Source: a virus
IMG/VR virus record: IMGVR_UViG_3300011114_000087
Location: 1 to 22,442 of that record
Strand: one strand, 5' to 3'
Length of the DNA stretch: 22,442 nt
Shown piece after piece: positions 3,127-22,442 of this stretch; the stretch's first letter is position 1; every line of letters starts with the position of its first letter. The position numbers were made by a program, and so were the translations under genes. The notes under the pieces were generated by a model, which was given only the letters and a program-made list of their open reading frames with translations, was not told where the DNA came from and did no database searches.

Positions 3127-3485
3127 TATGTACTCGTATTGCTAGGTGGGCTGGGTGCAATCGTATCCTTATTCCCCGTCTGAGTAGGCGTCTGCGTGTT
3201 CTGCTCGGTGGAGATGTACAACTCGTTGTTGCCGCCAGTCAGCAGGTAGTCATCGTTCGCGGCAACGCTTGCATCTGGACGCGGGAAACGGATGTTGATG
3301 CGCTCTGTTTTCCTCGCGGCAAGGCGGTACGGGTCAATCTGGTCTGCGCAGCCCTCGTTGCACACCCGCAGGCCGGGGAAGTTGGGGTCATTCCTCATCA
3401 CCGAGTGGGCACGCTTCATCTTGCACCTATCGCAGATGGCGATGGACAGGGTGGAGTTGCCAAGGGTGTCAAGGAAGATGGGCAT
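3126..3485 (-). CDS. Small Cys4 (zinc-ribbon-like) phage protein
   Basis: This 119-residue protein starts MPIFLDTLGNSTLSIAICDR. The open frame extends 56 codons upstream, but those codons overlap the endonuclease gene in another frame. The ATG at 3485 has GAGGTGG 5 bases upstream and overlaps the endonuclease stop by one base (TAATG), so it is chosen. Cys18 and Cys21 (ICDRCKMK), and Cys42 and Cys46 (RVCNEGCADQ), form a CxxC/CxxxC set likely to bind zinc. Similar small phage proteins carry CDRC..LRVC ribbons near tail genes. The last 25 residues are Thr/Pro/Asn-rich and probably disordered. It lies between adaptor and fibre genes, so a tail or fibre assembly role is possible; no enzymatic function is recognisable. 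Confidence 0.75.
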   Translation of the reverse strand: MPIFLDTLGNSTLSIAICDRCKMKRAHSVMRNDPNFPGLRVCNEGCADQIDPYRLAARKTERINIRFPRPDASVAANDDYLLTGGNNELYISTEQNTQTPTQTGNKDTIAPSPPSNTST

Positions 3486-4120: not shown

Positions 4121-4126
4121 AAATGA

Positions 4127-5188: not shown

Positions 5189-5191
5189 GTC

Positions 5192-5551
5192 TTACCAAGC
5201 GGGAGATGCTTTGTTCTTCGAGGTCGTGTTGACCTTGCAATCGCCAAGATTGATTTTTCCGCCAGTGGCTTTGCGCAACGGATTTTGCTGCATTGCTGCT
5301 CTGCGGGCACGCATGGCTTGTGCAGTATCGTCTTGCGTAAAACCCGCATCTTGTTCAGCCGCTTGGGTTACATCATTAAACCCTTGGTCGGTTACGGTGT
5401 TAAATTTTGCCTTCAGTCGGTTGTAGGCATCAGCATCCTGCAACTCAGTTTTTTTCTGAGTGTTATTGTTGGTGTAAAAGTATTTTGTTTCACCAGTAGA
5501 TGGGTTCTGTTCTGCGGTGAAGCTGTAGTTGGGTGCGTAATCGTCAGCCAT
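5192..5551 (-). CDS. Small phage protein with C-terminal GGK...Cys motif
   Basis: This 119-residue protein of unknown function starts MADDYAPNYSFTAEQNPSTG. TAGGAG, 6 bases before the ATG, is formed partly by the upstream gene's stop. The first half is polar (ETKYFYTNNNTQKKTELQDA), the middle is helical and Gln/Ala-rich (about 45-90), and the end has KATGGKINLGDCKVNTT followed by a terminal Trp. Its only Cys (105) lies in this motif, which is nearly the same as the end of the next gene upstream (GGKINLGACGVST). It lies just before the adaptor gene. A minor virion or injected protein is an inference from position only. Confidence 0.75.
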   Translation of the reverse strand: MADDYAPNYSFTAEQNPSTGETKYFYTNNNTQKKTELQDADAYNRLKAKFNTVTDQGFNDVTQAAEQDAGFTQDDTAQAMRARRAAMQQNPLRKATGGKINLGDCKVNTTSKNKASPAW

Positions 5552-5560
5552 AATTTTCTC

Positions 5561-6214
5561 CTACCAGTTAGCGTTTTTCTTGCTGGGCACATGGGTGGAC
5601 ACACCACATGCACCAAGGTTAATTTTTCCACCTTTGGTGTACTGATTCGCAGCGCCACCTTTTTTGAATCCGCCGGGGGTTTCATCTCCAAAAAGACTAT
5701 CCCTTGACCTGCCAGATGAAAATGCCGGGTCTTCTTCTTTGGAGATTGGCTTGTCTTTCTTGGACATATATTTGACCAACGAGCCAATTGCAGGCCGAAC
5801 GGCACTTAAAGCCTTCCCAGCGGGCATGGCGGCAATTGCAAGCTGTCCAGCGCCCATCAGCGCATCATTAAACGGGCTGTCGCCGCGTGCTGCTTTTTTG
5901 AACCCTGCCTCCGCGTCTTCGCCAAAAGTTGAATCCCAGCTAGACCTGCTTTTTGGCTTGACGCCACCTTCTTCAATTGAAGGCTTGGCGTAGGTAGCAC
6001 CTTGACGTTGAACTTCCGAACCGTCCTTGACGCTGGGGTTGCGGGGCTTGTTGACACCAAACTCTGGCGCACGGGACAGCCCCTTGTCTGCGTTCAGCAA
6101 GTCGCGCAGGGTCTTGTCGCTTCCGTACTCGGACTGGAAGTCTGCAAGCTCCTTTGCGGAGACAACAGCTTTCCCGTTCACGACTTTGCGGTCAGGGTTG
6201 GGTTTGTACGCCAT
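5561..6214 (-). CDS. Phage protein with internal repeat and C-terminal GGK...Cys motif
   Basis: This 217-residue protein of unknown function starts MAYKPNPDRKVVNGKAVVSA, with AAGGAG 5 bases upstream. It contains an Ala/Gly-rich, mildly hydrophobic stretch (about 116-150, FNDALMGAGQLAIAAMPAGK), possibly membrane-interacting. Two related units occur: SSWDSTFGEDAEAGFKKAA (91-109) and RSRDSLFGDETPGGFKKGGA (169-188). The C-terminus carries KKGGAANQYTKGGKINLGAC, with a single Cys at 203 and a terminal Trp. The sequence is basic and probably largely disordered. It shares its C-terminal signature with the 119-residue protein downstream, so the two may be handled by the same partner or process. Confidence 0.75.
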   Translation of the reverse strand: MAYKPNPDRKVVNGKAVVSAKELADFQSEYGSDKTLRDLLNADKGLSRAPEFGVNKPRNPSVKDGSEVQRQGATYAKPSIEEGGVKPKSRSSWDSTFGEDAEAGFKKAARGDSPFNDALMGAGQLAIAAMPAGKALSAVRPAIGSLVKYMSKKDKPISKEEDPAFSSGRSRDSLFGDETPGGFKKGGAANQYTKGGKINLGACGVSTHVPSKKNANW

Positions 6215-6223
6215 GATTGCTCC

Positions 6224-6475
6224 TTACCAGCCGGGACAGTTCCACCGTTGCATTGAAGCCCTTGCGCGGCTTCCCTTGTCGCTTTTCTCAGCCACTGGCT
6301 CCATTCGAGCGCAGAAAGAATCGCGTCTGGAGCCACCCTGTGGCTGGGGAGCCTTCAGGTTGGAACCAGTCTCACGATTGTACTTCTCGCGGCCCTTTGC
6401 GGTAAGCCCTGCGCCTTGCTTGGCAGGTAGCTTTTCGCCACGGCCAATGGCGAGGGATGGGTTCTTTTTTGCCAT
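6224..6475 (-). CDS. Small basic phage protein, DUF6321-like
   Basis: This 83-residue protein contains GLTAKGREKYNRETGSNLKA and PQPQGGSRRDSFCARM, the hallmark of a small phage family that I recognise as DUF6321 (function unknown). The ending QRWNCPGW is also typical. The protein is Lys/Arg-rich and may bind nucleic acid, but nothing proves that. Its ATG is 3 bases after the preceding stop, and the TGG-TGA end of that gene gives a weak GGTGA ribosome site. Its own end, TGG-TAA followed by GGAG, builds the Shine-Dalgarno for the 217-residue gene. Confidence 0.75.
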   Translation of the reverse strand: MAKKNPSLAIGRGEKLPAKQGAGLTAKGREKYNRETGSNLKAPQPQGGSRRDSFCARMEPVAEKSDKGSRARASMQRWNCPGW

Positions 6476-6478
6476 GAT

Positions 6479-6922
6479 TCACCAGCAAGACTTTGATGCC
6501 TTGCCGCCTGTTTTCATTTTGGCTGTTTTGGCTGACTGCTTGAAGGCATCAGCCGTTGGCGCACCTTTGCTGCCCACTCGGCGCATTTTTTCACCAGAGC
6601 CTTCAGATATGCGCTCACGTTTTGCATTGATATTTTCATACAAGCCGCCGCCTTTCATTTTCTTGGCCGAGAATAATTTTTCCACAATTTGCACCCGCTC
6701 AGGTTTGGTTGTTGCTCGGTTGACAATCTTCAAGCGCTCTGGCCTGCTCTTGCCCTCTTCGTAAAACCCAGCTTTTTTCAGGGACTGGGCTACTCCGCCT
6801 TCTGCCATCTTGTCGGCCTTGACAAACTCCTTGCCGACCTTCTGGGGGACGCCACCAAACCCGCCCTTGGTGTGGGCCGCAGCCGCCATCAGGCGGTGCT
6901 GGGCAGCAGATTTGCTGGGCAT
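6479..6922 (-). CDS. Basic phage protein of the KSxAQHRLM / GLYxNIxAKR type
   Basis: This 147-residue protein of unknown function has conserved blocks known from many phage hypothetical proteins. Residues 1-38 (KSAAQHRLMAAAAH, then GGVPQKVGKEFVKADK) are a common N-terminal module. Residues 93-135 (GGGLYENINAKRERISEGSG, then EKMRRVGSKGAPTADAFKQS) form a second common module. Between them lie MAEGGVAQSLKKAG and a helical region with two similar stretches (SRPERLKIVNRA and TKPERVQIVEKL, about 59-82). The C-terminus KTGGKASKSCW contains the only Cys, next to a terminal Trp. It starts 2 bases after the previous stop without a clear Shine-Dalgarno, so coupling is likely. Gly-Gly motifs link it to the neighbouring KGG proteins. 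Confidence 0.75.
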   Translation of the reverse strand: MPSKSAAQHRLMAAAAHTKGGFGGVPQKVGKEFVKADKMAEGGVAQSLKKAGFYEEGKSRPERLKIVNRATTKPERVQIVEKLFSAKKMKGGGLYENINAKRERISEGSGEKMRRVGSKGAPTADAFKQSAKTAKMKTGGKASKSCW

Positions 6923-6924
6923 GG

Positions 6925-7344
6925 TCAGGTCACAGGGTTGACGTAATGCTTTTGCATCTCTAGCACCACGGTGTAGGTATCGCCTGCGCTACCGTCGAAC
7001 GTAGTGAATGAGATGCCGCCTGTTTTACCCGTGCCAGCGTTGTTGGTGAGACCACCAATCTTAGAATAGTCTTGCGTGTACTGGCTATTTTGCGGAACAG
7101 TTTCAATGACCACGGGCGCGGTAGCAACCCAGTTCATTTGAACTTCCAGCCCGTGGGTGAGCGCTGTCACCTTCAAGATAGACACCGCGTCACAAGCTCC
7201 GCCAGCAGCAGATGCCGTGAGAGTTGAAGGATTTACCTTGACAACGCCTGATTCATTTTCAGTCGCGCTCATGGTTGCGTAAAACTTCATAATGGCAATG
7301 CGCTCACCATCAAAAAGCGTTTGAGAGGTAGCTGTAATAGCCAT
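6925..7344 (-). CDS. Small beta-rich phage structural-type protein
   Basis: This 139-residue protein starts MAITATSQTLFDGERIAIMK. The open frame runs 21 codons further upstream, but those codons include the hairpin at 7364-7379. GGAG lies 6 bases before the ATG at 7344, so the shorter start is preferred. The sequence is Thr/Val/Gly-rich with alternating hydrophobic positions (SGVVKVNPSTLTA, VEVQMNWVATAPVVIETV-like pattern, GDTYTVVLEMQKHY), suggesting a beta sandwich. Its length and its place just after the capsid block would fit a minor virion or neck protein. No specific family is identified. Confidence 0.7.
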   Translation of the reverse strand: MAITATSQTLFDGERIAIMKFYATMSATENESGVVKVNPSTLTASAAGGACDAVSILKVTALTHGLEVQMNWVATAPVVIETVPQNSQYTQDYSKIGGLTNNAGTGKTGGISFTTFDGSAGDTYTVVLEMQKHYVNPVT

Positions 7345-7354
7345 AGAAATCTCC

Positions 7355-7379
7355 AAAGAAAGCGGGGGCCGAAGCCCCC
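7355..7379 (-). terminator. GC-rich UUCG hairpin, probable terminator or processing site
   Basis: On the minus strand GGGGGC-TTCG-GCCCCC (7379-7364) is followed by GCTTTCTTT. The stem of six G-C pairs with a UUCG loop is very stable; the T-rich tail is interrupted, so termination may be partial. It lies between the stop at 7388 and the next Shine-Dalgarno at 7351-7354, so it could set different levels for genes on each side. Confidence 0.65.
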
Positions 7380-7387
7380 ACTCGTTT

Positions 7388-8638
7388 TTAACAAACGCGC
7401 CCGCCACGTTTCTTCGCTGGTGACACCGTGACCGATTCCTTGGTCTTGGTGACGCTGCCGTCAGCCCGTTCTTTGTCGGTCATGGAGCCTTGCCCGTTAA
7501 ACGCATTCCGCGCCTTGTTGTATAGCTCTTTCACCATGCTCAACGGGTTCAACGCCTCTTCAAGCTCACGGCTGGTCTTGTCTGTCACAGCCTTGGGGTC
7601 TTTGAGGGTGTACTTGTCGTTGGGTGAACCACCTTCAGCCAGCTTCAGCTTGTTGGCTGAGCCGTACTTCAGGTTGCTATCCATTTTGGCTTGGCGCATC
7701 GCGGTAGCGTTTTCCATCTTGTTGACTGCTTGCAACTGGCGGTTACCCGGGGCGACTTTGCCGCCCTTTTTGTAGGTTCCAGCCAGTTGGGTGATTTCAA
7801 CAGGAGAGGGAATAGGCTTGCGACCTTGCGGCATTGCCACGGCAGAACCAGCGCTGTTAACACTGCCCCCCGTGGCGAAGTGCTTTTTTGTTGCACCTCC
7901 GCGCTTGAAGCCACCAGCATTGCCGTAACTCACGCCGCCAGTTTTAGCGGGAGCGTTGTCGTACTTACCAGTGTCCACAATGGTCGTAGCAGGTGAACCA
8001 GAGGTGCTTTCCGAAGGAATGCGTCCACCAGTTGCATAGCCAGCTTGGCCCTTCACAACGCCGCCAGTAGCCATCTTTTTCATGGCCCCGCCACGCTTGT
8101 AGCCGCCGCCGTTGCCGTTCTTCACGCCACCAGTGGTGGCAGGAGAATTGTCAGCTTTAGCTTGATGCATGATGGTCGTAGCAGGCGTACCGGAAGTTGT
8201 CTCGCTGGGGATTGCTCCGCCAGTGGCGTACTTCTTCATCTTGCCGCCTTTTTTCAAGGCCAACTTGGTGCCCTTTCCGCCCTTGTGTTCTTGCATGTCA
8301 TGCTGCTTGAAGGCTTTCTGAATCATGGCCTTGTCTTGGGCCTTGTCAGACTTGCCGCCCTCTTTCATCATGCGGCTTGCTGCCAAGCCAACAGGAGCGG
8401 AGGGGCCAGCACCCATCGAGCGCATAGCGCGGCGACGAGCGGCCAAGGAAGGAGCCATAGGGGTAGCTGCCTTCATCATGCCGCCACGAGCAGGCATAGC
8501 GCTCATAGGCTGCGCGGTAGGTGGCATACCACCCATCATTCCGCCATCAGCCTTCTTGACGCTGCCACCTTTTTTGAGCTTCAGTTCGACTGAAGGCTCA
8601 GTGGTCATCATTTTGACCATTGGTTTGAATTGGCCCAT
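7388..8638 (-). CDS. KGG-repeat protein of unknown function
   Basis: This 416-residue, strongly basic, Gly/Lys/Met/Ala-rich protein starts MGQFKPMVKMMTTEPSVELK. TAAGGAG at the end of the previous gene is its ribosome site. It repeats short Gly-Gly motifs throughout: KKGGSVKKADGGMMGG (22-37), KKGGKMKKYATGG (129-141), KRGGAMKKMATGG (181-193), KRGGATKKHFATGG (245-258), YKKGGKVAPGN, LAEGGSPND and the final KKRGGRVC. Residues 137-193 and 201-258 form two copies of a longer unit. It has a single Cys, which is the last residue. It appears largely disordered, with a helical tail segment (SRELEEALNPLSMVKELYNK). Proteins with this KGG/ATGG style are known from uncultured aquatic phages without assigned function. 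It lies right after structural genes; virion association is inferred only. Confidence 0.75.
   Translation of the reverse strand: MGQFKPMVKMMTTEPSVELKLKKGGSVKKADGGMMGGMPPTAQPMSAMPARGGMMKAATPMAPSLAARRRAMRSMGAGPSAPVGLAASRMMKEGGKSDKAQDKAMIQKAFKQHDMQEHKGGKGTKLALKKGGKMKKYATGGAIPSETTSGTPATTIMHQAKADNSPATTGGVKNGNGGGYKRGGAMKKMATGGVVKGQAGYATGGRIPSESTSGSPATTIVDTGKYDNAPAKTGGVSYGNAGGFKRGGATKKHFATGGSVNSAGSAVAMPQGRKPIPSPVEITQLAGTYKKGGKVAPGNRQLQAVNKMENATAMRQAKMDSNLKYGSANKLKLAEGGSPNDKYTLKDPKAVTDKTSRELEEALNPLSMVKELYNKARNAFNGQGSMTDKERADGSVTKTKESVTVSPAKKRGGRVC
7865..8230 (-). repeat. Two long tandem repeats within the KGG protein gene
   Basis: Units at 8230-8060 (residues 137-193) and 8038-7865 (residues 201-258) share the pattern YATGG.IPSE.TSG.PATTI, then PA.TGGV..GN.GG.KRGGA.KK..ATGG. 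The period is 64 residues. Conservation of the protein pattern with scattered synonymous and conservative changes points to an old duplication under selection. Confidence 0.85.
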
Positions 8639-8648
8639 GATTTACTCC

Positions 8649-9626
8649 TTATGCTTGTGTGACGCCAAATGCGCCAACACGGGTTGCATTCGGGCCTGCC
8701 GCAATCGCTGGCAGGGCTATTCCCATCACAAGGCGCTTGACACCGTCCGCCGCAGAGGAGGGTAAGTAAGTGCCTCGCACATCACCAGTGGTGGTGGTTG
8801 CTGTAGCAGTAGCGGCAACGGTCATAGTGCCAGTATCTTCAGCCAAGGTGTTGTCCCAGCCAGCGCGGGTGATGTAACCTCGGTCAATCACTCGCAAGGG
8901 CAGACCCAAAATATCAGTTGTGCCGACAGCCACGGTAACTACGCTGGCCCCCGAAGAAACAACGCTGGAGATTTGGTAGAAGGCTTTCTTACCGCTCACA
9001 GTTGTTGACGCCACCGTCCCTGTTGCAATCACCTCGCTCATGGCCTGACCGTAGTAGTCGTAGCCTGAAACGGTGATATTGACCGAAGTGGGACTACCTG
9101 CGCCTGTGGTTGTAGAAACAGCGCGGGGGCAGTCCAGTTGCAGTCCAGTTGCACCGTTTACGAGGGTAGCCGATTTAACCCCGGCTCCAGCGGCAAGCGT
9201 CAAAGTCGTGGCAGTGGTAATTACCGCCGCAACAATGTTGGTCGTCAATTTGGCCTGTGGCACCACATCCCAGATGTACAGACGACCCACTGGGCCAACG
9301 CCCACTTCCATTGGGGCAGGGTTTTGCAACAAGGCATTACCAGAGCCAACAATGGTGGAGCTTGCAACAGTCTGCGAAGCACTTACGGTGTAGGTGCCTA
9401 CGCCACCTGCGCCAGTGCCAAATGCCGTGATGTAGGTTCCATTTGTCAGGGCGGTTGAGCTGTCAATGTACATACCCAGAACAATGGGGTCGCCCGACAG
9501 CATTTCCGTGACGGTCAGTGTGGTGGTGGCTATGGAGCCAGTAAAAGTAGAGGTGTTGGGGTAAGCGTCTATGCCTTGATAGGCGACAGCCGTTCCCAGA
9601 AATAGATCATCTGCAAATGAAGGCAT
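8649..9626 (-). CDS. Beta-rich phage structural protein (capsid-associated)
   Basis: This 325-residue protein starts [20 protein letters not shown], with AAGGAG 6 bases upstream. It is Thr/Val/Ala/Gly-rich and probably all-beta. Residues about 100-130 ([20 protein letters not shown]) look like a conserved core. Residues 29-93 ([13 protein letters not shown] through [20 protein letters not shown]) are a module found repeatedly in phage virion proteins and appear inserted between [11 protein letters not shown] and the core. The C-terminal part ([17 protein letters not shown], then [20 protein letters not shown]) is probably structured too. It follows the major capsid gene across a hairpin, which suggests a head fibre, decoration or neck protein. 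The exact role is unknown. Confidence 0.65.
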
Positions 9627-11779: not shown

Positions 11780-12718
11780 TTAGCTCCTTTTGTTTCGTGC
11801 TTCTAGTGCGTACCGTTTAATCATGCGGTTACGCTTTTCAAGGTTGTCCCACATGCCTGCATCTTTCATGGCCCGAACCTGTTCTGGTTCAAGCACAAAG
11901 GTGTTTCCACCTCCTCGGATACTGGACTCGCGGCCCGACCCCGTCACTACACTTCTGGGAGGACTCCTTCTGGTTGGTTCGTCTGACGATAGTGTATACC
12001 TATTGGGAAGGCGTTTTTGCAAGCGTTTGTCTAACTCGCTCCAATACTCTTCAGTTTCTGGGTTAAAACCCTCCGCCACAAGGCGGTTGTCAACGACTTT
12101 GGCAATCTGGGAGTCCTCGTCGGCCCCGTTCGGGTCATACCAGTCGTTGCGCTCCATCCAGTTGTTGGCAAGGCGCTGGAGGCGGGGATTGACCGCGCCA
12201 CCTTCACTTTGTCTCTCAGCAGAACGTGCTTTGAAGTTCTGCATGGCCTCCAACTTGCGCTTGGTCTCGTACCAAAGCTCTTGCGCCTCGGCTAGGGCGG
12301 CACCGTCAGCGTTGTCGGTGGCCTCCCGTAGCTTGGCAGAGGCGTACCGAAGGCGGAGTTGCTCGTCCTCAATAGCCTTGTCAAACCGGGCAAGGTCTGC
12401 GCCGTGGGTCTTGCGCTCCACAACAGACAAACGCTCCATTAGGTCTTGATTCTGGCGCTGCAACAGGGTCAGACGCTGGTCTTTCTCCTCGTTGGTGCGC
12501 TTGATGTACTCCTTCTTGGCGCGGCGGCGATTGCGTCGAGCGTCCCGCACCGCTTCGGTGTCATCGGGGTGGTCAACGTCATCGGCGTCAGCAGCGGGCT
12601 GCTTGCCAGCGTCATCGTCATCGTCGTGTACCGCCAGATTGTCTGGCAGGTCAACGGTGGCAGAGCCGTCCTGCTCCTCAACAACGTCGAGGAGGTCTTC
12701 CTTGGTTTTGTCGTTCAT
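11780..12718 (-). CDS. Scaffolding-like protein
   Basis: This 312-residue, highly charged protein lies upstream of decoration and capsid genes, where scaffolds usually lie. The N-terminus is very acidic, with a run of five Asp (HDDDDDAG, about 31-38) and DDVDHPDD. A basic segment follows (RRNRRRAKKEYIKR, about 61-74), then a predicted coiled coil (RLTLLQRQNQDLMERLSVVE and on, about 82-170). The middle (RLQRLANNWMERNDWYDPNG, then DNRLVAEGFNPETEEYW) is a block seen in phage scaffold candidates. The C-terminus is basic (RNRMIKRYALEARNKRS), like the capsid-binding end of known scaffolds. The start overlaps the GroES-like stop in ATGA, so they are co-translated. The function is inferred from composition and place. 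Confidence 0.7.
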   Translation of the reverse strand: MNDKTKEDLLDVVEEQDGSATVDLPDNLAVHDDDDDAGKQPAADADDVDHPDDTEAVRDARRNRRRAKKEYIKRTNEEKDQRLTLLQRQNQDLMERLSVVERKTHGADLARFDKAIEDEQLRLRYASAKLREATDNADGAALAEAQELWYETKRKLEAMQNFKARSAERQSEGGAVNPRLQRLANNWMERNDWYDPNGADEDSQIAKVVDNRLVAEGFNPETEEYWSELDKRLQKRLPNRYTLSSDEPTRRSPPRSVVTGSGRESSIRGGGNTFVLEPEQVRAMKDAGMWDNLEKRNRMIKRYALEARNKRS

Positions 12719-13158
12719 AGGTAAGCCTTCATAGCAAGTGGGTCGCCAGTCAGCTTGGCGATGACTTCGTGGTCGTTCAAGACCATGAACAGGGCTGGGT
12801 CTTCGTGGTCATCGGAGCCGGGGACGCGAACTTCCCAACGGTCACCGCCCCACTTCGGAACGCGGATGTACTCACCCACGCTGCACCAAGAGCCTTCAGG
12901 CCACCCTTGCATCGTGTCCCGATGCTTGAATGCCAGAGGGCCAATCTCGATGACCTTCGCCACCATGTTCTGCCACTTTTCGGTTTCCTTAGTTTCTTCA
13001 ACCAAGATAATTCCCGCGCTACTTGTCTTTTGCTTCGTGCGGCGGAGTTGCACCAAGATACGTCCGCCAAGAGGTTTTGCGCCGGGGTCTACGCTCGGAA
13101 ATGCCCAAGCTAATTCAGTCGTGTTAGCGACTTCCGGTTCGTTCATATTCATCTTCAT
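12715..13158 (-). CDS. Phage GroES-like co-chaperonin
   Basis: This 147-residue protein has a GroES-type (Cpn10) domain at about residues 28-135. GGRILVQLRRTKQKTSSAGI aligns with the family's first strands and mobile loop, and the loop carries the hydrophobic tripeptide Ile50-Ile51-Leu52 that contacts GroEL in the family. NMVAKVIEIGP matches the GKVVAVGPG region, GSWCSVGEYIRVPKWGG matches VKVGDKVLF.KYAG, and the final FMVLNDHEVIAKL matches YLILREDDILA. About 20 N-terminal residues and a Trp-rich insertion (MQGWPEGSW) go beyond bacterial GroES. Phage GroES analogues help the host GroEL fold the capsid protein, which fits the scaffold and capsid genes just downstream. The start could be any of three in-frame ATGs (13158, 13152 or 13146); the first overlaps the upstream gene by 35 bases. 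Confidence 0.85.
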   Translation of the reverse strand: MKMNMNEPEVANTTELAWAFPSVDPGAKPLGGRILVQLRRTKQKTSSAGIILVEETKETEKWQNMVAKVIEIGPLAFKHRDTMQGWPEGSWCSVGEYIRVPKWGGDRWEVRVPGSDDHEDPALFMVLNDHEVIAKLTGDPLAMKAYL

Positions 13159-13324: not shown

Positions 13325-13476
13325 TTTTTCTTAGCTTGCGATAAGCCTCCTTGTGGTTTAGCGGGCTTGCTGTCGCCCTTGGTTTGCATGGACTGGCCCG
13401 TAATAGGTGCGCCCATTGCCATGCGTTTGTGCTGACGCACATTCACGCTCTTTTGCTCTGCATCACTGGTAGCCAT
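13321..13476 (-). CDS. Very small basic phage protein
   Basis: This 51-residue protein starts MATSDAEQKSVNVRQHKRMA. The open frame extends 21 codons upstream inside the portal gene, but AAGGAG lies 6 bases before the ATG at 13476, so this start is preferred; it overlaps the portal end by 14 bases. It is rich in Lys, Gln and Ser and ends in a lysine run (QAKKK). The SVNVRQHKRMAMG block resembles other tiny phage proteins next to portals. It is probably disordered; function unknown. Confidence 0.65.
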   Translation of the reverse strand: MATSDAEQKSVNVRQHKRMAMGAPITGQSMQTKGDSKPAKPQGGLSQAKKK

Positions 13477-16009
13477 AAGGAACTCCTTGGTTTGGTGGAT
13501 TGACAGACTTGTCTTGCTCGAACTTGAGCTTGGCCGCATCCCGTGTTAAGCGGGCTGTCTCGATGCGTTCTTTGGTCTCTTGGTCGCCCTTGGCGATGGC
13601 AAGGCGCAGTTGCAGTTCTTCCATGTCGTACTGCTGTTTCTGCTGAAGTTCTTGCATGTCCATCTCGATGCGGGATTGAAGCTCCTGCCCCTTGAGGTTC
13701 ATCTCTGCTTGGTCGCGTTTGGTGCGGCGTTGGGTCTCGGCCATGCTGGTGTCCAACAAGACCTTGGTCTCTGCCGACATCTGTGGCTGTGGCTGGAACT
13801 GCTGCAACTGCTGCTGCATCTGCTGGATGGCAGGCATGACCTTCTGCAACGCCTCGTCGCTGTCCATGCGCACATGCTGGGACACGGCGGAGAAGAGCTT
13901 GTCCACCTTGGCAGGGTTCTTGACCATGTCGTAGTTTTGCGTCTTGTTGTCCATCGACATGTCCACATAGCCGTTCATGCGGTTCAAGTACCACAAGACC
14001 AAGTGCTGCTTGATGTGTTCCATCGCCTTGGGCAGGTAGACGGGCGCAATCGCGGGGTTTCCGCCCAGCACTGGGTTGTTGGCGAAGTCCAAAATGACTT
14101 GGATGTGGGCAAGGTGGTCTTGCTCGATGTAGGCGTAGGCCGCTTGGCCCAAAGCCATTGCCACGTTCTCGTTGGCGGCGTCCAGCTTGGCAGGCGCGGG
14201 CACATCGACCATGAGTTCGTTGACTCCGGGCACCTTTATCTGCTTCAAGAAGCGCTCCAGCACGACTTTTTGGTTGAATTGGGCGGGATACTTCTCCATC
14301 AGCGACATAACGGCCTGTGTCTGGGCCATGCGCTGCGTCTCAGAGAAGATGTGCGGGTCGGAGACGGGAATAACGTCCGTGATGCGGGCGAAATCCTCTT
14401 TGGTGATGTCCAAATCCTCCACAACCTCGCCACGGCGCATGTCATCCAAGTACCAGCGGTTGATTCGGCTCAAAACACGCAGCACACGGCCCTGAGACTC
14501 GTGCAAACGGGCGTGAATGGCCGAGAAAACGGCTGCACCCTGCTCAATCAGCGCCTGAGTGGTGCCGACAGGGGTGTTTGCGTTGACATCGGCAATCTTT
14601 TCCTCTGCCGTGGTCACCACGCCCTTGGCGGCGTTGGTCAACCAGCCCAAAAGCTCGAACAAAACCTGCGATGGCGGGTTGAAAGGCATGGGCATAGCCA
14701 GTTTGCGGACATCATCCACCCCCGGCGCACCCTCAATCTCCACCACTTGGGTGACTTCGACCTCTTGGGACTGCCCAGAAATCTTGCCGCCCTTGAGCTT
14801 CAGGAGCGTTGCAGCGTTGTTGATGTGGGCAGAGTCCAGCAAGGCCCGCAAAGCGCCTGTGAGGGCCGCAGAGAGGCCGCCAATTAGCTGCGGCAGGCCA
14901 ACAGCGACGGCTCCACGCCACGGAATGAACTTGAACTCGACAATCCAGTCCAATTTGGTCAGCGTTTCGTCGCCTTCTTCCCAGTTCCGGTATAGGCCGA
15001 TGACCTCGTTGGACAGGTCATCAATCATCAAGATGTACGGCGCTGACTCACCCTTGGAAATTCCGTCCTCTTCCAGTTCCAAATGCGTGTAGATGTGGTA
15101 GACGGTGCGCATTCCGTCTTCGTTGTCGTTCTCCGACTTGCCTTCGACCTTGTTGGTCGCTTTTTGGGCAAGCGAAAGCTCCGGGTTCATGGTCGCCCGG
15201 ATGTAGCTGGTGTCGCGGTACAGCCCAGAAGCCACGCGGCTCTTGTATTTGGCCTCCGAGATGATGTCCACCTCGGTCACACGCTCCGCGCCGTAGAAGT
15301 TGCTGGCCGAATACGGCAGGATGACGTTGTCTATAGGTAGAAATTCAGCACATGGTCGCTTCTTTTTCTCGTCGTACCAGAGCTTCATGTACTGGGTGCC
15401 GCCCAGTGGTAGCTGGGTCAGCATCTGCTCCTGCTCGTCGCGGAACTCTTCAATCTGCTCGGTCAACTGCCAGTTCATAAAGTCGCGCTTGCGCTCTGCA
15501 ATCTCGACCTTGTCGTCGTCCACGTCGCCCAAAATCTTGGTGCGGGTCGGGCCGTCAGGCGGGAACATCTCCTTGATGGCGCGGGAGGCGAAGTCGATGC
15601 AGGCTTCGGCCATCACAGGATGCACCACCTTGCTTGCGCCGTTGAAGTTTGCGCCGCCGGGGGCGTCCTTGCCCATGCCCGTGCGCTTGATGCCCTCCTC
15701 GTACTGCTTGTCGCGGTCTTTGCGGGCTTCCTTGTCCTTCTCGACCAGTTCGATGAACTTCAGCGGGAGCTTGTCAAGGTCATACGGGTCAAACGAGTCG
15801 GCCAAGTTCTGATAGAACTCCTCGTCCTCCATCGGGCCTTTGTCGCCAGTGTGGACAATGACCGAGCCGTCGGGCAGTTCCTCAATGGTCGAGTCGTCCA
15901 ACTCAGCCATCTCAGGCATGTCCACCTCTACGCCTTCGCCTTCTGCGTCAGGCGGCTCACCGCCGATGAAGCGCTGGAACTCTGGGTCAATTGGAAACTG
16001 TGTTGCCAT
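13463..16009 (-). CDS. Portal protein (large, P22/podovirus type)
   Basis: This 848-residue protein has the length and layout of large podovirus portals, which form the dodecameric ring for DNA entry. The N-terminal arm is acidic (1-60). The wing and clip region includes NFNGASKVVHPVMAEACIDF (about 119-138), ASRAIKEMFPPDGPTRTKIL, QEQMLTQLPLGGTQYMKLWY and PIDNVILPYSA. A core with FIPWRGAVAVGLPQLIGGLS, ALRALLDSAHINNAATLLKL and the NANTPVGTTQALIEQG block follows, then NRWYLDD. The C-terminal 130 residues are a Gln/Glu/Met-rich coiled coil (PAIQQMQQQLQQFQPQPQ and on), like the long barrel helices of P22-type portals. The start has AAGG 9 bases upstream and overlaps the giant protein's end by 23 bases. 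Confidence 0.9.
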   Translation of the reverse strand: MATQFPIDPEFQRFIGGEPPDAEGEGVEVDMPEMAELDDSTIEELPDGSVIVHTGDKGPMEDEEFYQNLADSFDPYDLDKLPLKFIELVEKDKEARKDRDKQYEEGIKRTGMGKDAPGGANFNGASKVVHPVMAEACIDFASRAIKEMFPPDGPTRTKILGDVDDDKVEIAERKRDFMNWQLTEQIEEFRDEQEQMLTQLPLGGTQYMKLWYDEKKKRPCAEFLPIDNVILPYSASNFYGAERVTEVDIISEAKYKSRVASGLYRDTSYIRATMNPELSLAQKATNKVEGKSENDNEDGMRTVYHIYTHLELEEDGISKGESAPYILMIDDLSNEVIGLYRNWEEGDETLTKLDWIVEFKFIPWRGAVAVGLPQLIGGLSAALTGALRALLDSAHINNAATLLKLKGGKISGQSQEVEVTQVVEIEGAPGVDDVRKLAMPMPFNPPSQVLFELLGWLTNAAKGVVTTAEEKIADVNANTPVGTTQALIEQGAAVFSAIHARLHESQGRVLRVLSRINRWYLDDMRRGEVVEDLDITKEDFARITDVIPVSDPHIFSETQRMAQTQAVMSLMEKYPAQFNQKVVLERFLKQIKVPGVNELMVDVPAPAKLDAANENVAMALGQAAYAYIEQDHLAHIQVILDFANNPVLGGNPAIAPVYLPKAMEHIKQHLVLWYLNRMNGYVDMSMDNKTQNYDMVKNPAKVDKLFSAVSQHVRMDSDEALQKVMPAIQQMQQQLQQFQPQPQMSAETKVLLDTSMAETQRRTKRDQAEMNLKGQELQSRIEMDMQELQQKQQYDMEELQLRLAIAKGDQETKERIETARLTRDAAKLKFEQDKSVNPPNQGVPYGYQ

Positions 16010-19000
16010 GTCGTTTTACCTTTTTAATTTGGGCGAGTCCGCCTTCTTTGCGACCCTTCTTCTGAAGCCCAGTCAAATACTTGTCGCTCACAAATTGGCT
16101 TGGCACAGCGCGTGACATTGCCCAAGCATTGATTGGTTCATTTGGCTTGATGCCCCGTGCTTGTATCCAATCAGGTGCTGCATCACGGAATGGAGTGAGT
16201 TCGTACCGCATTCCAAGGTCATTGCCAGTCACTTGGTAAGGAAATGCCTCGTTCAAGTCGGGGCGGTGGATGATGCCATTGTCCATCACAAACAGGTTTG
16301 GGCCTACATCATTTGTGTTTGCGCCCATCATTGCAGGGTCAGTCTCGCGCTGGAGGATGGCTTCAATGTTGGCGGCGTCTTGCCACTTTACGCCGGGGTT
16401 AGCCGCCTTGAACTCTTTACTAATCATGGGCTTCTTGACGCCAATGCCCATCAATGCGTCACTGATTGCTGCTCTGCGGTCAAACGTGGTCGCAAAGTCA
16501 AACGCTTTGGGGTCGGTAATGTCAAAGTCGCTGGGAAACAACGGCTTGCCATTTTTGCTCAAGGAGCCACGGATGCGGTCATTGATGAACTCAATTTGTT
16601 TGGGGTGTACGGCACCGCTCAAATTGGCAGATTGCAGTTGGCCCAAGGCATCCTTGACCACCACGGTGTTGGATTTGTGCTGGGTGGGTGAACCTGCGTA
16701 GGTTGTCCAGATTGTGTTTTCAGGGTCGTTCTGATTTATTTTCTTTTCGGTAATCCCCTTGCTACCAAACCCCCAGACGGTGTTGGCTTCTTTGTGGGGC
16801 AACGAGTAGTGCTGAAGCCCAGCAAACCCTGCGCCACCACGGTTAGGGCCAAACACCCGTGAGCGGTCAGTCTCGGTGAAGTTGAGCGTCTTGCCCTCGG
16901 CTCCAACATTGCCCAGAGCCTCGGACATCTTCATAGTTGGCGGAGCAAGCGGGTCAGCGTAGTGGACACCGGGCAGGTACGGAGCAACTTCCGCAGCTTT
17001 CTTTGCGGCCTTTGCAGCTTCCGCTACTTTCCGCGCCTTGAGTGCTGCACCACCAATGCCCATGTGAACTTCGCCGCCACGTTGGTACATGGGCAGGCCG
17101 TTGTTCAGGATGTCTTCCCGCATCTCGGGGGTGATGTCGAAGCTGTGCAGCTTGGTGGCGTGTTCTGCCCTGACCCTGTCAGCAAAGGCTTGATTGATAG
17201 CGTTGCGTTGCTCCACAGGAAGAGCGGAAATGGCTTGGATGTCACTCACTCCGTACATCTCTTGCGCAAGGCGCTGCACATCCGCCAGCGTTGGCGTGGT
17301 CTTGGAGTACGGCACATCGCCTTCAATCGCATGTTCGCCAACCCGCACGCCGTACTTCTTGCCAATGTCGTTCAAGTAGCTGGGTACCATCTTGTCGTAA
17401 AAGCCAGCCATGCCTTCGCCTCCTACTTGAAGGTCAAGGCCGCTCAATTGCTTGTAGCTGTGAGAGGTGGGTTGCTCCATCAGCTTCTTTGCCGTTTCCT
17501 TGCCAACATAATCAGCGATATTGTCTGATGTCACGTTGTCTGCAATTTTTCTGTAATCGCCAGTTTCTTTTTCTTTGGCGTACAGACGGCCAGTGTCTGT
17601 ATTCCATTCCACCGTGTCAATTTGTTGAGACAAGTCAAACCGCTTGGCTTGCTCGGCTCCGGGCGTAATCAGTAGCTGGTCATAGCCGCCTTCTGCTGCG
17701 TCCATGAGCGCTTGCTTGAGGGCGTGTTCGTGCCAGTTCTTTTTGAATGGGGCGTCGGGCATACCAACTGGTTGAGGCAACCGACCCATATTGCCTTTCA
17801 TCGCGTTCTCCGCGCTTTCAGCAGTCAAGAATGCACTCATTCTTTCGCCATCAAGATATGGCTCAAACGTATTTCCGCTGGCGTCTTTAACGCGATACAT
17901 GCCGTTCACGTCTTGCTCAATCGTGTAGGGCTTGTCAAACATATTGACGTAACCCTTATCTCGCCCTTTCTGGTGCCAGTCGGATTGAATCTCTTCGATG
18001 TGCAATGCCCGCTTCTGCGCAGGCGACATGTCAATGTCCATATTGCGGAAGTCCTTGGCATGTGCAAACTGCGCAGCTTCCAGCGGACTGATGACACCTT
18101 GGCGAATCATCATTTCAGGCGCACCGCTGCCAAGGTTCTCTACCTTGGTGCCCATCGCGTCAGCCATGCGTTGGCCGATGGCATCAATTTGTGCGCTGTT
18201 GTACGTCGGCGTGACCCTGTCTGTCTGGCGCATGTGGTACAGGATGTTGGGGTCATCCCAGTGGCTTGCCGTAAACGCCGTGCCCTTTGGGTTTTCGTAC
18301 TGGTACAGGCTCTCGCGGTAGTTCTCAGCACCGGGCATTTTGTATTTGCTGTACTTTGTGCCGCTCTCTTCAGACAACTCATCCTTTGCCCGCTCGTAAT
18401 ACTTGTCGTAGTCGTGGTCGTAGGAATAATTAAAGGCGTCTTCGTAGGTTATATCGCCATTACGGTCTACAAAATCACCAACATCATCGGCCATCATCTG
18501 CATGGCTTTTTTGTCAATTGCTTCATGCGTGAGGTTTTGCTCACCAAGCGTAATCTTTCTGACGCCGGGCGGCTTGTACTTCTCGTTCAGGTGCGAAACA
18601 AAATCCTGCTTGCTCATCTTGGGTAGCTGAGTCAGCGCGGGGTTCAGCACTGGGCCGTTCTTGCTGGGCACCATAATTCCACGGTCAACCAGTTCGGCTT
18701 TTTTGATGCCGCTGGTTTTGGCAAGCTCGTTGGCAAACTCCATGCCTGTGCCTGCGCCGCGTTTGGAGGCTTCCAAAGCCTTGTCCACAGCGGAGAACAT
18801 CTGAGCCTTTTTGGTTGTCTTCTGTGCTTTGCCAATTGCCTTAAGCAGACCACCGCCAGCCATGTGCGGCTCTTCAGCAATCATGTCCAGCAGGCGTTGC
18901 TTAGCGCTCTTCTCCTCAAAGAAAGATTTGACCTCGCCGCCTTCGGCCATGCCTTCTTCTGGCGGTTGAAGCTGGTTGAGCAACCAATCGTCATGTTCAG

Positions 19001-22000
19001 GCTCAGTCATGTATTGGCCCTCGACCTTGCGCAGCCCCGTGTTCCGTAAATCTCCAACGTCAGACCACTGACCACCCTTCACAAAGTCCTGCACGAACGG
19101 CAGGTAGTCTTCCTTGGGTGCGCGGTTCTGCTTGCCTTTGATTTGGACAATGCGGTCTGGCTGTGGCGCTACTCCAGCTTCCTTGAGGGCTTGAGCGGTA
19201 TGCTCGTCCGTCAACTCTTCAACGTCAGGGTTGCGCTGACGCCATTGCCTCACATACTCACGGTACTGGGCTTTTTCTTGAGGACTCAAGCGAGTAAATG
19301 CTTCTCCACTTACGGGGTAAGGATTTTGGTTTGGCTCAACCTCCACCGTTACATGCGGCTCACCCTTGGCGTCACGCAGGCTGAAAATGCGGCTGCGGCC
19401 TTCCAGCACATCAGGGCAATAGCCACCAACGCAGTGGCCCATCGTGTCGCCTTCATACTTGAGGGCTTCAGCCAATTGGCTTTCAGGATACCTTTCAATG
19501 TAGTCTTCTGGTGTCAAACCTTTTTGCTTGGCCTCTTCAGTCAACCGAGCAATCATTTGTTTGCGTTCTTCAAGAGGCAAAGAGTTGTAATCTGGAGCCT
19601 TCAACTCAATCCACTTGTAGCCCTTGTCGGAATAGTCTTTGTGAACAGGCATACCCTCGGTGACCTTGGCCTGCGTCTCACGCATCTTCTTTGCCATCTC
19701 TTGGTCAAACTCGTAGGTGCGGCGCACTGCCTGCTCCATGCTGATTTTGTTCAGTTGCTCGGGACGGATGCGGCCAGCGGCAAGGTCTTGGTTCAAGACA
19801 TCGACGATGTGGTCAAAGCCGAGGCCGCGTGCAAAAGAATCAGCGTCTGCTGCATGGAAGACAGGAGTGTCTGGGTCAAGTTTGGTAAGCCACGGGTCAG
19901 TGTTTACGGCTGAACTGAATCCGCGCCGAATTTCTGATTCTGTCAATGGCTTGGTATATTCTTTTGCGGGAGCAACATTGAGCCTATAGTCTGTTGCGGT
20001 CTCCCATCCTTTTGCTGCGTTTGATTTACCAACGCCAAGCGGCGCTTGTCCAGCATTCATGCGCAATACGGCAAGAGACTCTGGAACGCTTCGGTTGGGA
20101 ATATCAAGTTCAGGCATATGTGATATGCCTTCTTCTGCCAACTTGCGCACCGGGTCACCGGGTGTTGCCATTTGCTTCTTGACGTAATTGGTCAAATTGC
20201 GGTCAATCCAGTCGTTTATGGCTGACCCTTGTTTAACCTCAGTTATGCTTTCATTCACAAAATCTTGTAAATTAGGCGATAACCTACTCATTGCTTCTGG
20301 AGTGTATTTATTAGTTAATTCATTCAGCACTTCGGATGGTTCGCTACCTACGGCGGTTTTCTTGCGCAGCGGCTTCATTGCCTGCTCAACACTGCCACTC
20401 AGCCAGTTGCCACCCGGTTCTTTGATGACACTGGTCTTTGCGGCAGGCACATCAAACTTGCGGGTGCCGCTGCGGATTACTGGCGTAGCAATGTCCGTGA
20501 AGGTCTGCATGGCGGTCTCAGCATCCTTCACCGCCTTAGCCGTCTTCTGGGCCTTGCTGATGGCTTTGAGCAGGCCACCGCCAGCCATGTGAACTTCACC
20601 GCCTTTTTTGCGGCGCTGCACCGGGGTCTTGTTGAACATGATTGCCATTGGCTTGGACGCTTTGGGGTTTGCCATGCCTTCGTAGCCGTACTCACGGACG
20701 AGGCGCTCAATGTCGTTGGCGTCCTGCGTGGGGTAGGTGATACCTTGGTTGTACTTGGCGGTGTAGGGTGTGCGGTTGGACTCACGAGCCAGCACGTTGA
20801 AGTTCAGCGGGTCTTGCGTGATGTCGTACAGGTTTGACGACTCGCCACGGTAGCGGTTGACGCCAAGCCCCGGCTCCGGTAGGACTGATCCTGGTTCGCC
20901 CATGTAGAAGTAGGAACGGTCACGCACGGCACCGGGGTAGTTCATCAGGCGCTCGGCCTCGGCACCCTTGATGCCCGTGCCGTACATCCGGGGGTCGGTA
21001 AAAGTCAGACCCGGCTCGTTGCTGAAGTGAGTTAGGGGCGATTGAATAGAAGTTCCCGGCATTGGCTTGTTTGCGGCAGCAAGGTATTCAGGGATTCCCC
21101 CAGCAAACTGGGGATTCATAAACTCAGGGGGCAGTAGCACGGCCCTGTTGGGAGCAAACTCCAACCCGGAATACGCTTGACGCTTTAGCTCCGCAATTTT
21201 ATTTACAAGAGCTTTGTCACCGCGCCTTCTTGCCTCGTTTCCTAAGCGCTCATATTCCGATATGGTCTGCTTGAGCTTGGCGTTCAGCGGACTGTAGTTC
21301 ACCACCGAATTTTGCCCACGGGTCTCAGCCGTCATAGCCATCCGCGCAAGTGGAGAGTACATCTGCTGGTGGACAGCCCATGCCATCTCTTCGCCCTTGG
21401 GGCCAAACTCGTTGCCGTAAATGGCGTGACCCAAAAGATCATGGACGGCCCGGAACTTCTCGTTCTCATTGAGGCCGCTTTGCGGATCGACGTTGTGCAA
21501 GAAGTCGTGTTTGTCGCCACCTTGATAAACGTACAGGTGCTTGTTTCCATGCACATCAGAAGCCATGTCTTTGGCCCCGTTGTAGTTGCCTTCGCCAGCG
21601 CGGTGGTACGAGAAGTTGTACGGCAGTCTCTTGAATTGGTCGTCAGTCTCCTTTGCCATCTGACGGTAAGCCTTCTCCATCAGGTCGTCGTAGTTCTTTG
21701 CGCCAATCCTCTCCATCAACTCAGGCATCTCCCGGCCATAAGCCCCAAAGATTGCAGACTTGTATTCGGGCGATCCTTGGACGGCTAAATCAAAAATGCG
21801 GGCAATGCCTGACTGTTTTGCCAACGAGCTACTGGGAACCTGCGGGACTCCAAAATCCGTTCCTTGAGTGTCTCGCGTGTACTTCTTTGCAATGTTCAGC
21901 GGCTCGTTCGCAACTGGGTCAGCAATTATTCGACCCACCTCTTCTGACGATAGGAATTTCGGAACTTCGCGTCCAGCTTGTTCTGCTCCTCCTCCGTCAA

Positions 22001-22442
22001 GGGCGGAGCCTCGTAGCCCATCCGCTTCTTTAATTCCGCGAGTTGTTGCCTTACTCGTGTCAAGTGCTGTTGGGCTGACTCGGAAGAACGGGCCTTCTTG
22101 TTTTGTTGCATAAGTAGCTCCTGTTTCTAAGGGCGTAATTTTACTTGGAGTTAAAGCCTGTGTTGCTTTCTTTGCAGCACCAGCAGCCGCACTGCCAGCC
22201 TTGACGCCACCCTTGATAGCACCATACCCAAGAGCGGCCACACCAGCGGCGTCCAGCAGGTCAAGCGGGTCAGGCATCTGGCCGTAGCCAATGCTCTCTG
22301 CCACGTTGCTCATTCCAGCAAATGGCGTGAAGTCGGACACCTTGAAAACTTCCATCAAGTCCTTGGCTGGAATCTTGCCCATCTCGATGCCAGCCTGCTT
22401 GTACACAGGCGTGCCCTGCTCTGACATGTACTCAGGCATGAA
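15987..22442 (-). CDS. Giant multi-domain polyvalent protein (5' end outside window)
   Basis: At least 2150 residues; residue numbers count from the Met at 22439, but the frame is open to the window edge and the first residues look internal, so the N-terminus is missing. An Ala/Gly-rich segment (60-95) may touch membrane. Modules, called by eye: HDxxGH type (about 210-440; HDLLGH 333-338, ETRGQN 372-377); ADP-ribosyltransferase-like (468-607; LTHFSNEPGLTFTDPRMYG, YFYMGEPG, SSNLYDI); PcfJ-like (985-1110; GHCVGGY, IFSLRD, IVQIKGKQNRAP); phage EEIQSDW/GGEGM module (1370-1786; IEEIQSDWHQKGRDKGY, GGEGMAGFYDK, FDITPEMRE); and a last conserved module (1850-2120; GGAGFAGLQHYSLP, TQHKSNTVVVKD). Gly-rich linkers with GGEVHM or HMAGGG separate them. 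This architecture matches phage 'polyvalent' proteins, thought to enter the host with DNA; that role is inferred. The stop overlaps the portal start. Confidence 0.85.
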   Translation of the reverse strand, partial: FMPEYMSEQGTPVYKQAGIEMGKIPAKDLMEVFKVSDFTPFAGMSNVAESIGYGQMPDPLDLLDAAGVAALGYGAIKGGVKAGSAAAGAAKKATQALTPSKITPLETGATYATKQEGPFFRVSPTALDTSKATTRGIKEADGLRGSALDGGGAEQAGREVPKFLSSEEVGRIIADPVANEPLNIAKKYTRDTQGTDFGVPQVPSSSLAKQSGIARIFDLAVQGSPEYKSAIFGAYGREMPELMERIGAKNYDDLMEKAYRQMAKETDDQFKRLPYNFSYHRAGEGNYNGAKDMASDVHGNKHLYVYQGGDKHDFLHNVDPQSGLNENEKFRAVHDLLGHAIYGNEFGPKGEEMAWAVHQQMYSPLARMAMTAETRGQNSVVNYSPLNAKLKQTISEYERLGNEARRRGDKALVNKIAELKRQAYSGLEFAPNRAVLLPPEFMNPQFAGGIPEYLAAANKPMPGTSIQSPLTHFSNEPGLTFTDPRMYGTGIKGAEAERLMNYPGAVRDRSYFYMGEPGSVLPEPGLGVNRYRGESSNLYDITQDPLNFNVLARESNRTPYTAKYNQGITYPTQDANDIERLVREYGYEGMANPKASKPMAIMFNKTPVQRRKKGGEVHMAGGGLLKAISKAQKTAKAVKDAETAMQTFTDIATPVIRSGTRKFDVPAAKTSVIKEPGGNWLSGSVEQAMKPLRKKTAVGSEPSEVLNELTNKYTPEAMSRLSPNLQDFVNESITEVKQGSAINDWIDRNLTNYVKKQMATPGDPVRKLAEEGISHMPELDIPNRSVPESLAVLRMNAGQAPLGVGKSNAAKGWETATDYRLNVAPAKEYTKPLTESEIRRGFSSAVNTDPWLTKLDPDTPVFHAADADSFARGLGFDHIVDVLNQDLAAGRIRPEQLNKISMEQAVRRTYEFDQEMAKKMRETQAKVTEGMPVHKDYSDKGYKWIELKAPDYNSLPLEERKQMIARLTEEAKQKGLTPEDYIERYPESQLAEALKYEGDTMGHCVGGYCPDVLEGRSRIFSLRDAKGEPHVTVEVEPNQNPYPVSGEAFTRLSPQEKAQYREYVRQWRQRNPDVEELTDEHTAQALKEAGVAPQPDRIVQIKGKQNRAPKEDYLPFVQDFVKGGQWSDVGDLRNTGLRKVEGQYMTEPEHDDWLLNQLQPPEEGMAEGGEVKSFFEEKSAKQRLLDMIAEEPHMAGGGLLKAIGKAQKTTKKAQMFSAVDKALEASKRGAGTGMEFANELAKTSGIKKAELVDRGIMVPSKNGPVLNPALTQLPKMSKQDFVSHLNEKYKPPGVRKITLGEQNLTHEAIDKKAMQMMADDVGDFVDRNGDITYEDAFNYSYDHDYDKYYERAKDELSEESGTKYSKYKMPGAENYRESLYQYENPKGTAFTASHWDDPNILYHMRQTDRVTPTYNSAQIDAIGQRMADAMGTKVENLGSGAPEMMIRQGVISPLEAAQFAHAKDFRNMDIDMSPAQKRALHIEEIQSDWHQKGRDKGYVNMFDKPYTIEQDVNGMYRVKDASGNTFEPYLDGERMSAFLTAESAENAMKGNMGRLPQPVGMPDAPFKKNWHEHALKQALMDAAEGGYDQLLITPGAEQAKRFDLSQQIDTVEWNTDTGRLYAKEKETGDYRKIADNVTSDNIADYVGKETAKKLMEQPTSHSYKQLSGLDLQVGGEGMAGFYDKMVPSYLNDIGKKYGVRVGEHAIEGDVPYSKTTPTLADVQRLAQEMYGVSDIQAISALPVEQRNAINQAFADRVRAEHATKLHSFDITPEMREDILNNGLPMYQRGGEVHMGIGGAALKARKVAEAAKAAKKAAEVAPYLPGVHYADPLAPPTMKMSEALGNVGAEGKTLNFTETDRSRVFGPNRGGAGFAGLQHYSLPHKEANTVWGFGSKGITEKKINQNDPENTIWTTYAGSPTQHKSNTVVVKDALGQLQSANLSGAVHPKQIEFINDRIRGSLSKNGKPLFPSDFDITDPKAFDFATTFDRRAAISDALMGIGVKKPMISKEFKAANPGVKWQDAANIEAILQRETDPAMMGANTNDVGPNLFVMDNGIIHRPDLNEAFPYQVTGNDLGMRYELTPFRDAAPDWIQARGIKPNEPINAWAMSRAVPSQFVSDKYLTGLQKKGRKEGGLAQIKKVKRHGNTVSN
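16986..17081 (-). repeat. Inter-module linker 3 of the giant protein
   Basis: Residues 1787-1818 (RGGEVHMGIGGAALKARKVA followed by Ala/Lys repeats) resemble linkers 1 and 2 and separate the EEIQSDW module from the last module. The GGEVHM core is kept; the rest has drifted. Confidence 0.75.
18798..18950 (-). repeat. Inter-module linker 2 of the giant protein
   Basis: Residues 1164-1214 contain MAEGGEVKSFFEEK and HMAGGGLLKAIGKAQKTTKK, nearly the same as linker 1. It separates the PcfJ-like and EEIQSDW modules. Confidence 0.8.
20520..20609 (-). repeat. Inter-module linker 1 of the giant protein
   Basis: Residues 611-640 (KKGGEVHMAGGGLLKAISKA and a short Ala/Lys helix) separate the ADP-ribosyltransferase-like and PcfJ-like modules. 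On the plus strand 20575-20591 is an exact 17-base match to 18850-18866 in linker 2. Confidence 0.8.

Follow-up and report, generated by a model that had tools for sequence, protein, structure and literature searches.

Polyvalent proteins, a class described by Iyer et al. 2017 (PMC5512222), carry several unrelated enzymatic domains, including the ADP-ribosyltransferase (ART) domain ART-PolyVal, in a single polypeptide and are encoded near the packaging genes of portal-terminase phages. T4 Alt is the model of an ART that is packaged in the head and injected (PMC5512222), and AcrIF11 is an ART that inactivates CRISPR (PMC12421852). The giant gene of a freshwater phage analyzed here encodes a member of the polyvalent-protein class. 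By sequence or fold, its 2500-aa ORF holds at least two disparate domains, ART-PolyVal and PcfJ, plus an ART-fold domain (module D) and the unrelated modules C, F, and G. The phage is of the portal-terminase type, with the portal identified by PHROG and terminase-like ORFs identified in a sister contig by sequence and synteny. We consider it probable that a slot for cargo genes within the packaging operon encodes a cassette-built polyvalent effector that is packaged and ejected and whose cassettes are shuffled via linkers.

Results

A giant frame in the packaging operon

The window, the whole 22,442-base virus record that was analyzed, contains one open frame on the minus strand at 15987-22439 that encodes 2150 aa from its first ATG and is still open at the contig edge (Table 1). 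Contig L002 matches all 2150 residues with 100% identity and extends the frame to a 2500-aa ORF with the start MTDAKARLLQMIADEPHM, supplying the 350 N-terminal residues that lie beyond the window. The uninterrupted giant frame adjoining the portal gene that had been proposed from this DNA is real, and recovery of the sequence past 22442 makes the N-terminal modules visible.

Table 1. Coordinates of the giant gene, its modules and linkers, and neighboring or related features
Feature	Location	Strand	Basis or remark
Portal protein	13463..16009	-	phrog_1216, E 3e-17; 23-bp overlap with stop of giant gene
Giant polyvalent protein gene	15987..22439	-	ORF, 2150 aa in window; completed by L002
C-terminal tail KEGGLAQIKKVKRHGNTVSN	15987..16037	-	kept at portal junction in relatives whose last modules differ
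Module G (to aa 2134)	16038..17003	-	no family match; occupies first position in other architectures
Linker 3, GGEVHMGIGGAALKARKVAEAAKAAKK	17004..17078	-	sequence comparison
Module F (aa 1200-1787)	17079..18842	-	widespread, without Pfam match; EEIQSDWHQxGR ... GYD ... VGGEGMxGFYDK
Linker 2, MAEGGEVKSFFEEKSAKQRLLDMIAEEPHMAGGGLLKAIGKAQK	18840..18944	-	repeats N terminus of full protein
Module E, PcfJ-like half (aa 840-1165)	18945..19922	-	PF14284 at aa ~957-1038; aa 916-1147 predicted GNAT-like
Module E, N-terminal half (aa 650-839), helical	19923..20492	-	relatives; AlphaFold2 model
Linker 1, GGEVHMAGGGLLKAISKAQKTAK	20520..20603	-	sequence comparison
Module D, ART-fold domain (aa 455-612)	20604..21077	-	AlphaFold2 fold; nearest solved structure AcrIF11
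Module C, helical domain (aa 201-450)	21090..21839	-	phrog_3170; AlphaFold2 pLDDT mostly >90
Region B (aa 1-200), hydrophobic/Ala-Gly rich	21840..22439	-	homologues in L003-L008, L018, L040; sequence reading
Small-terminase-like ORF	L002 2523-3104		ORF size and sequence
Terminase-sized ORF	L002 3406-4827		ORF size and sequence; synteny with annotated relatives
Giant	L002 5478-12980		ORF
Portal	L002 12958-15504		ORF
Stand-alone C homologues with kinase-UvrD-Cas3-Cas8e	L296 5274-16209; L286, L287, L290, L294, L295, L300, L302, L303, L304

The gene order in L002 is TerS-TerL-giant-portal. The stop of the giant gene (15987) overlaps the start of the portal gene (16009) by 23 bp within this TerL-portal operon, which implies cotranslation with a late structural gene. 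In characterized phages with a related portal, the content of the TerL-portal interval varies: Caulobacter phage RW has nothing there apart from a tRNA, HTVC023P has one small gene, ctpbd312 has a gene for an 890-aa protein, and DSL-LC04 has one for a PcfJ-like protein. This range from empty to large indicates that the interval is an optional cargo slot. Nearly half of the module ORFs found (108 of 225) lie directly upstream of a portal gene, and sibling proteins that occupy the slot can contain LPD23 or a GDSL lipase. In one of these slot proteins (L009 5196-10493), a GDSL lipase/acylhydrolase cassette (PF13472) fills the N-terminal part. What looks like a truncated ART cassette (KGGQVHKNPFDYENA...GHDSYYV...KAEGGNV), bounded by two GG motifs, is present in the ctpbd312 slot protein (L051 8197-10899) and may be a relic.

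The position of the gene, its cotranslation with the portal, and the precedents of T4 Alt and of polyvalent proteins in general (PMC5512222) make it plausible that the giant is packaged in the virion and ejected with the DNA. Alternatively, it could be an unpackaged early counterdefense protein made in the infected cell, with the portal neighborhood merely tolerating cargo. Slots that are empty or almost so in related phages would suit this explanation, as would the different location of homologous modules in some other phages, such as Planktothrix phage Pag-Yong1. We nevertheless judge it quite unlikely, given a gene that lies within the TerL-portal operon with the overlapping stop described above and relatives of module C in unrelated phages that are annotated as structural proteins or are located amid head genes.

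Three further observations concern neighboring genes and a related record. A GroES-like co-chaperonin (phrog_3188) is encoded downstream of the portal (window 12715-13158) and also occurs in related phages. Among the tail genes, the ORFs at 461-1024 and 3485-4120 resemble GIY-YIG homing endonucleases by eye. A 39-kb circular record, Limnohabitans phage DC33 (L057; PQ492659.1), encodes a 3125-aa polyvalent-type protein and is classified as Inoviridae, apparently in error.

Module content of the giant

Modules A to G were delimited using relatives from IMG/VR. At least five modules had been predicted; the modular character stands, and L002 raises the number to eight segments (A to G, with E as two halves). 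The modules were found again in 49 loci in a first viral scan, and single-module scans returned 576 relatives for C and 456 for F, so they are not chance readings. Pfam matched only PcfJ in the window part of the giant, and PHROGs added matches for C (phrog_3170), F (phrog_7348), and E (phrog_3169/8470). When searched against the PDB, the sequence profiles built for A, C, D, E, F, and G gave no convincing match, and PADLOC matched nothing in the giant. Pfam detected no metallopeptidase domain in the giant; such a domain is typical of many polyvalent proteins but is not universal.

Two modules have an ART assignment. Module A (L002 aa 40-260, outside the window) matches ART-PolyVal (PF18760) at 59 bits in L002 (cutoff, 31.2), 29 of 29 relatives match this family at E < 0.01, and the strand-5 aspartate of ART-PolyVal is invariant among the aligned relatives. 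The original prediction had placed the ART-like fold of polyvalent proteins at residues 468-607, where the LTHFSNEPG...YFYMGEPG pattern is indeed present (~470-520). Structure prediction of this region, which belongs to module D, gives an ART fold, but the canonical ART-PolyVal domain is module A and D lacks a conserved catalytic acid on strand 5.

The AlphaFold2 model of C and D together reaches a pLDDT of 91.8 and a pTM of 0.90. The best PDB match of module D is AcrIF11 (6kyf; Foldseek E 4.4e-3, probability 1.00), which VIA aligned with Z 6.9 over 113 aa at 3.8 Å. Further structural matches were MbcT (6fkg) and NatT (8qnl), which we take to be ART-related folds too, and tankyrase. The profile link between D and ART-PolyVal is weak (hhalign E 4e-5) and confined to the GY[D/E]G strand-helix-strand, and none of the 26 module D members matched PF18760 at E 0.1. 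Module D is ART-like by its predicted fold only. In the module D family, the ART histidine (strand 1) and tyrosine (strand 2) are conserved, and the strand-5 acid position is occupied by E, Q, S, A, G, T, or D. This variability means that D may be inactive or rely on another residue, and catalysis by D appears doubtful. Its likeness to AcrIF11 offers a lead but does not assign a function.

Module C, which the AlphaFold2 model joins to D as one rigid unit with no linker, has the invariant pattern HDxxGH...GE..H...SETxGQ and is a putative helical metal enzyme. A resemblance of HDxxGH to aromatic amino-acid hydroxylases was supported by neither profile search nor fold search, and the VIA alignment barely covered C. 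Free-standing relatives of C occur in bacteria. In ten Micromonosporaceae genomes, a C homologue of about 220-260 aa has a type I N6-methylase gene on one side and a protein kinase-UvrD helicase-Cas3-Cas8e run on the other, and in four further genomes it adjoins the methylase gene (14 with methylase adjacency in all). Judged by its neighbors, the stand-alone homologue is possibly an uncharacterized defense gene in Micromonosporaceae. This neighborhood is consistent with a defense-related activity of C, and synteny within one family may just be inheritance.

The PcfJ-like module that had been read from the GHCVGGY/SLRD/IKGKQN pattern, present at ~1001-1105, was borne out. Module E scores 35.7 bits against PF14284 (cutoff, 25), and 38 of 49 relatives match this family, which to our knowledge is uncharacterized in conjugative plasmids as well. 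Literature searches on PcfJ in phages returned nothing useful. In the AlphaFold2 model of module E (pLDDT 87.3), model residues 277-508 follow the order helix-helix-strand-strand-(insert)-strand-helix-strand. All 50 rows of a second-look VIA alignment were GNAT or MYST acetyltransferases (Z 7.5 to 5.8), the GNAT matches from Foldseek were weak (E 0.7 at best), and sequence gave the resemblance no support. Because Foldseek scores were weak and a Z value below 8 is possible for a common arrangement, we lean only slightly toward a GNAT-like fold for the PcfJ module, a likeness of which no earlier mention was found in the literature searched.

The acetyl-CoA loop of GNAT proteins, Q/RxxGxG/A, lies between strand 4 and helix 3. 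Module E has an invariant Q.KGK.N (QIKGKGN in several relatives) at a strand-helix junction, which may or may not be in register with the GNAT loop. H1029 is also invariant, and C1003 of GHCVGGY is missing in several relatives, which argues against the PcfJ module being a cysteine enzyme. In L008, module E is spread over two overlapping ORFs (3517-7995 and 7800-9566), suggesting a frameshift, either real or a sequencing error.

Region B is often found upstream of C-D in protein order. Module F is a separate ORF adjoining the E-bearing ORF in about ten relatives, and the F ORF starts within the corresponding linker region. Separate, unrelated genes in related phages had been named as evidence against a modular protein; F is indeed separate and adjacent there, but these ORFs are homologous cassettes, not unrelated genes. 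The possibility that F or G are ARTs received no support from hhalign.

Linkers and cassette turnover

A recurrent linker, GGxVHMxGGG, in places followed by LLKAxxKAQK, separates the cassettes, and the linker DNA is repeated too. The full protein opens with AKARLLQMIADEPHMGGGGLLKAVTKAQK, and the same stretch returns at L002 aa 1530-1558 (75% DNA identity over 85 bp), with its second half found again at aa 967-986. In relatives, the GGxVHMxxGG core is present at most module borders. Linker motifs number 77 per 264,000 aa in module ORFs versus 8 per 927,000 aa elsewhere.

If the linkers were protease sites, the giant would be a polyprotein whose cassettes separate after cleavage in the prohead or host cell. 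The recurrence of the same linker between cassettes, the separate F ORFs that start in a linker region, and the processing proposed for polyvalent proteins (PMC5512222) all point that way. Against it, no prohead protease or metallopeptidase was recognized in the window or the giant by Pfam or PHROGs, the linker sequence varies (AGGG, GIGG, QKGG, DKGG), and C and D are predicted to be a single rigid unit. We regard cleavage at the linkers as unlikely.

Motifs that recall the linkers of the giant were seen in small proteins encoded between the capsid and tail genes (window 5192-5551, 5561-6214, 6479-6922, and 7388-8638). These carry KGG/TGG motifs (KKGGSVKKADGG, GGKINLGxCxV), several with a terminal Trp. 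From their sequences, these motifs and the linkers are perhaps a shared virion signal.

The 185 complete ORFs combine seven module types in 34 different orders. To the right of the junction, L035 and L043 share 99.85% identity over 9709 bp; to the left, they share 98.4% over 3.8 kb. They differ by exactly one ART cassette of 711 bp, which L043 carries in frame at a GGxVHM linker. The cassette is flanked by a direct repeat of ~40 bp, the DNA coding PDLNxAAGG. L004 and L007, whose portals are 95% and 98% identical, respectively, to that of the phage analyzed here, have just some cassettes in common with L002, with several breaks at linkers: L004 tracks L002 at 90% DNA identity to aa 973, within a linker, and then jumps to a different linker copy, and L007 rejoins L002 directly after linker 3. 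The expectation that the protein is built from swappable parts is borne out beyond the original claim by the 34 orders and by a clean cassette gain or loss between near-identical phages.

Across 160 internal homology breaks, 32.5% lie within 30 aa of a linker versus 8.2% for random positions, and about two thirds lie more than 30 aa from any recognized linker. The enrichment also fits selection for joints at domain boundaries without a role for linker DNA.

The close relatives are all metagenomic contigs and the linkers are repeats, so the mosaic could in principle reflect misassembly with joins at repeats. This is extremely improbable: the window and L002 agree exactly, both L034 and L035 have the short form that lacks the 711-bp cassette, frames are open throughout, and the repeats are mostly 40-85 bp, below typical read length.

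The same turnover bears on whether the giant is mainly structural, i.e., an internal core or ejection protein whose enzyme-like folds are inactive scaffolding. Many members of the D family lack the strand-5 acid and several relatives lack the PcfJ cysteine, as would be expected of such a protein. We give it little probability, because whole cassettes turn over between near-identical phages, related phages leave the slot empty or nearly so, and the ART-PolyVal aspartate is retained throughout the aligned relatives of A. Near-identical phages that differ by whole cassettes make the giant look like a rapidly re-armed injected weapon, not a fixed structural part.

Discussion

We favor a model in which the TerS-TerL-slot-portal cargo slot codes for one long effector of independently folding cassettes: two ART-fold domains, the putative HDxxGH metal enzyme, PcfJ with its predicted GNAT-like fold, and the unassigned domains F and G. 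The giant would be made late, packaged in the capsid close to the portal, and ejected with the DNA. Its cassettes may then modify host proteins or blunt early defenses, with T4 Alt and AcrIF11 as models. Recombination between linkers, intragenic or with a coinfecting phage, would add, drop, or swap cassettes in frame while the portal and terminase flanks stay fixed. The analysis demonstrates the modules, the linkers, the in-frame turnover of cassettes, and the location in the operon, and it shows both fold resemblances as predictions; we infer packaging, ejection, the enzymatic activity, the targets, and linker-mediated recombination as the mechanism. A literature search on the virion proteomics of Flavobacterium elemo phages returned nothing useful. 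A bolder version, in which the linker is a dedicated cassette-exchange site and the protein is an in-frame shuffled, integron-style arsenal delivered in the virion, including a PcfJ-type acetyltransferase and an AcrIF11-like ART against early host defense, strikes us as possible but doubtful.

Polyvalent proteins were defined from distant genomes; here, the unit of exchange, a cassette bounded by repeated linkers, and a single gain or loss event are visible at 99.85% identity. Near-isogenic phage pairs are therefore a natural comparison set for the role of each cassette. A GNAT-like PcfJ, if true, would give the PcfJ family a testable activity.

Comparison with known systems sets out what is new. 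The class itself is known. The linker-delimited cassettes, the observation of a single cassette gain or loss event, and the tentative GNAT-like reading of PcfJ are new here. Unlike the polyvalent proteins described previously (PMC5512222, whose main text contains neither "linker" nor "PcfJ"), the giant spaces its cassettes with a recurrent linker, and the gain or loss of a cassette in frame is documented. T4 Alt belongs to a different ART clade (R-S-E) and is not built from cassettes. The anti-CRISPR ADP-ribosyltransferase AcrIF11 (6KYF; PMC12421852) is the nearest solved fold to module D, which has the strand-1 His and strand-2 Tyr; however, AcrIF11 is free-standing, the two share 13% identity, and no conserved counterpart was identified in D for the acid that AcrIF11 uses in catalysis (D115; D146/E147 in a homologue). 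Module E scores above the Pfam cutoff for PcfJ of the enterococcal plasmid pCF10 (PF14284) but is phage encoded, fused to other domains, and predicted to be GNAT-like in fold. Among phages, DSL-LC04 likewise fills the TerL-portal slot with a PcfJ-like gene, and the Manatee Spring isolate ct7L0027 encodes modules F and C downstream of its portal gene, in both cases in smaller proteins with fewer modules than the giant.
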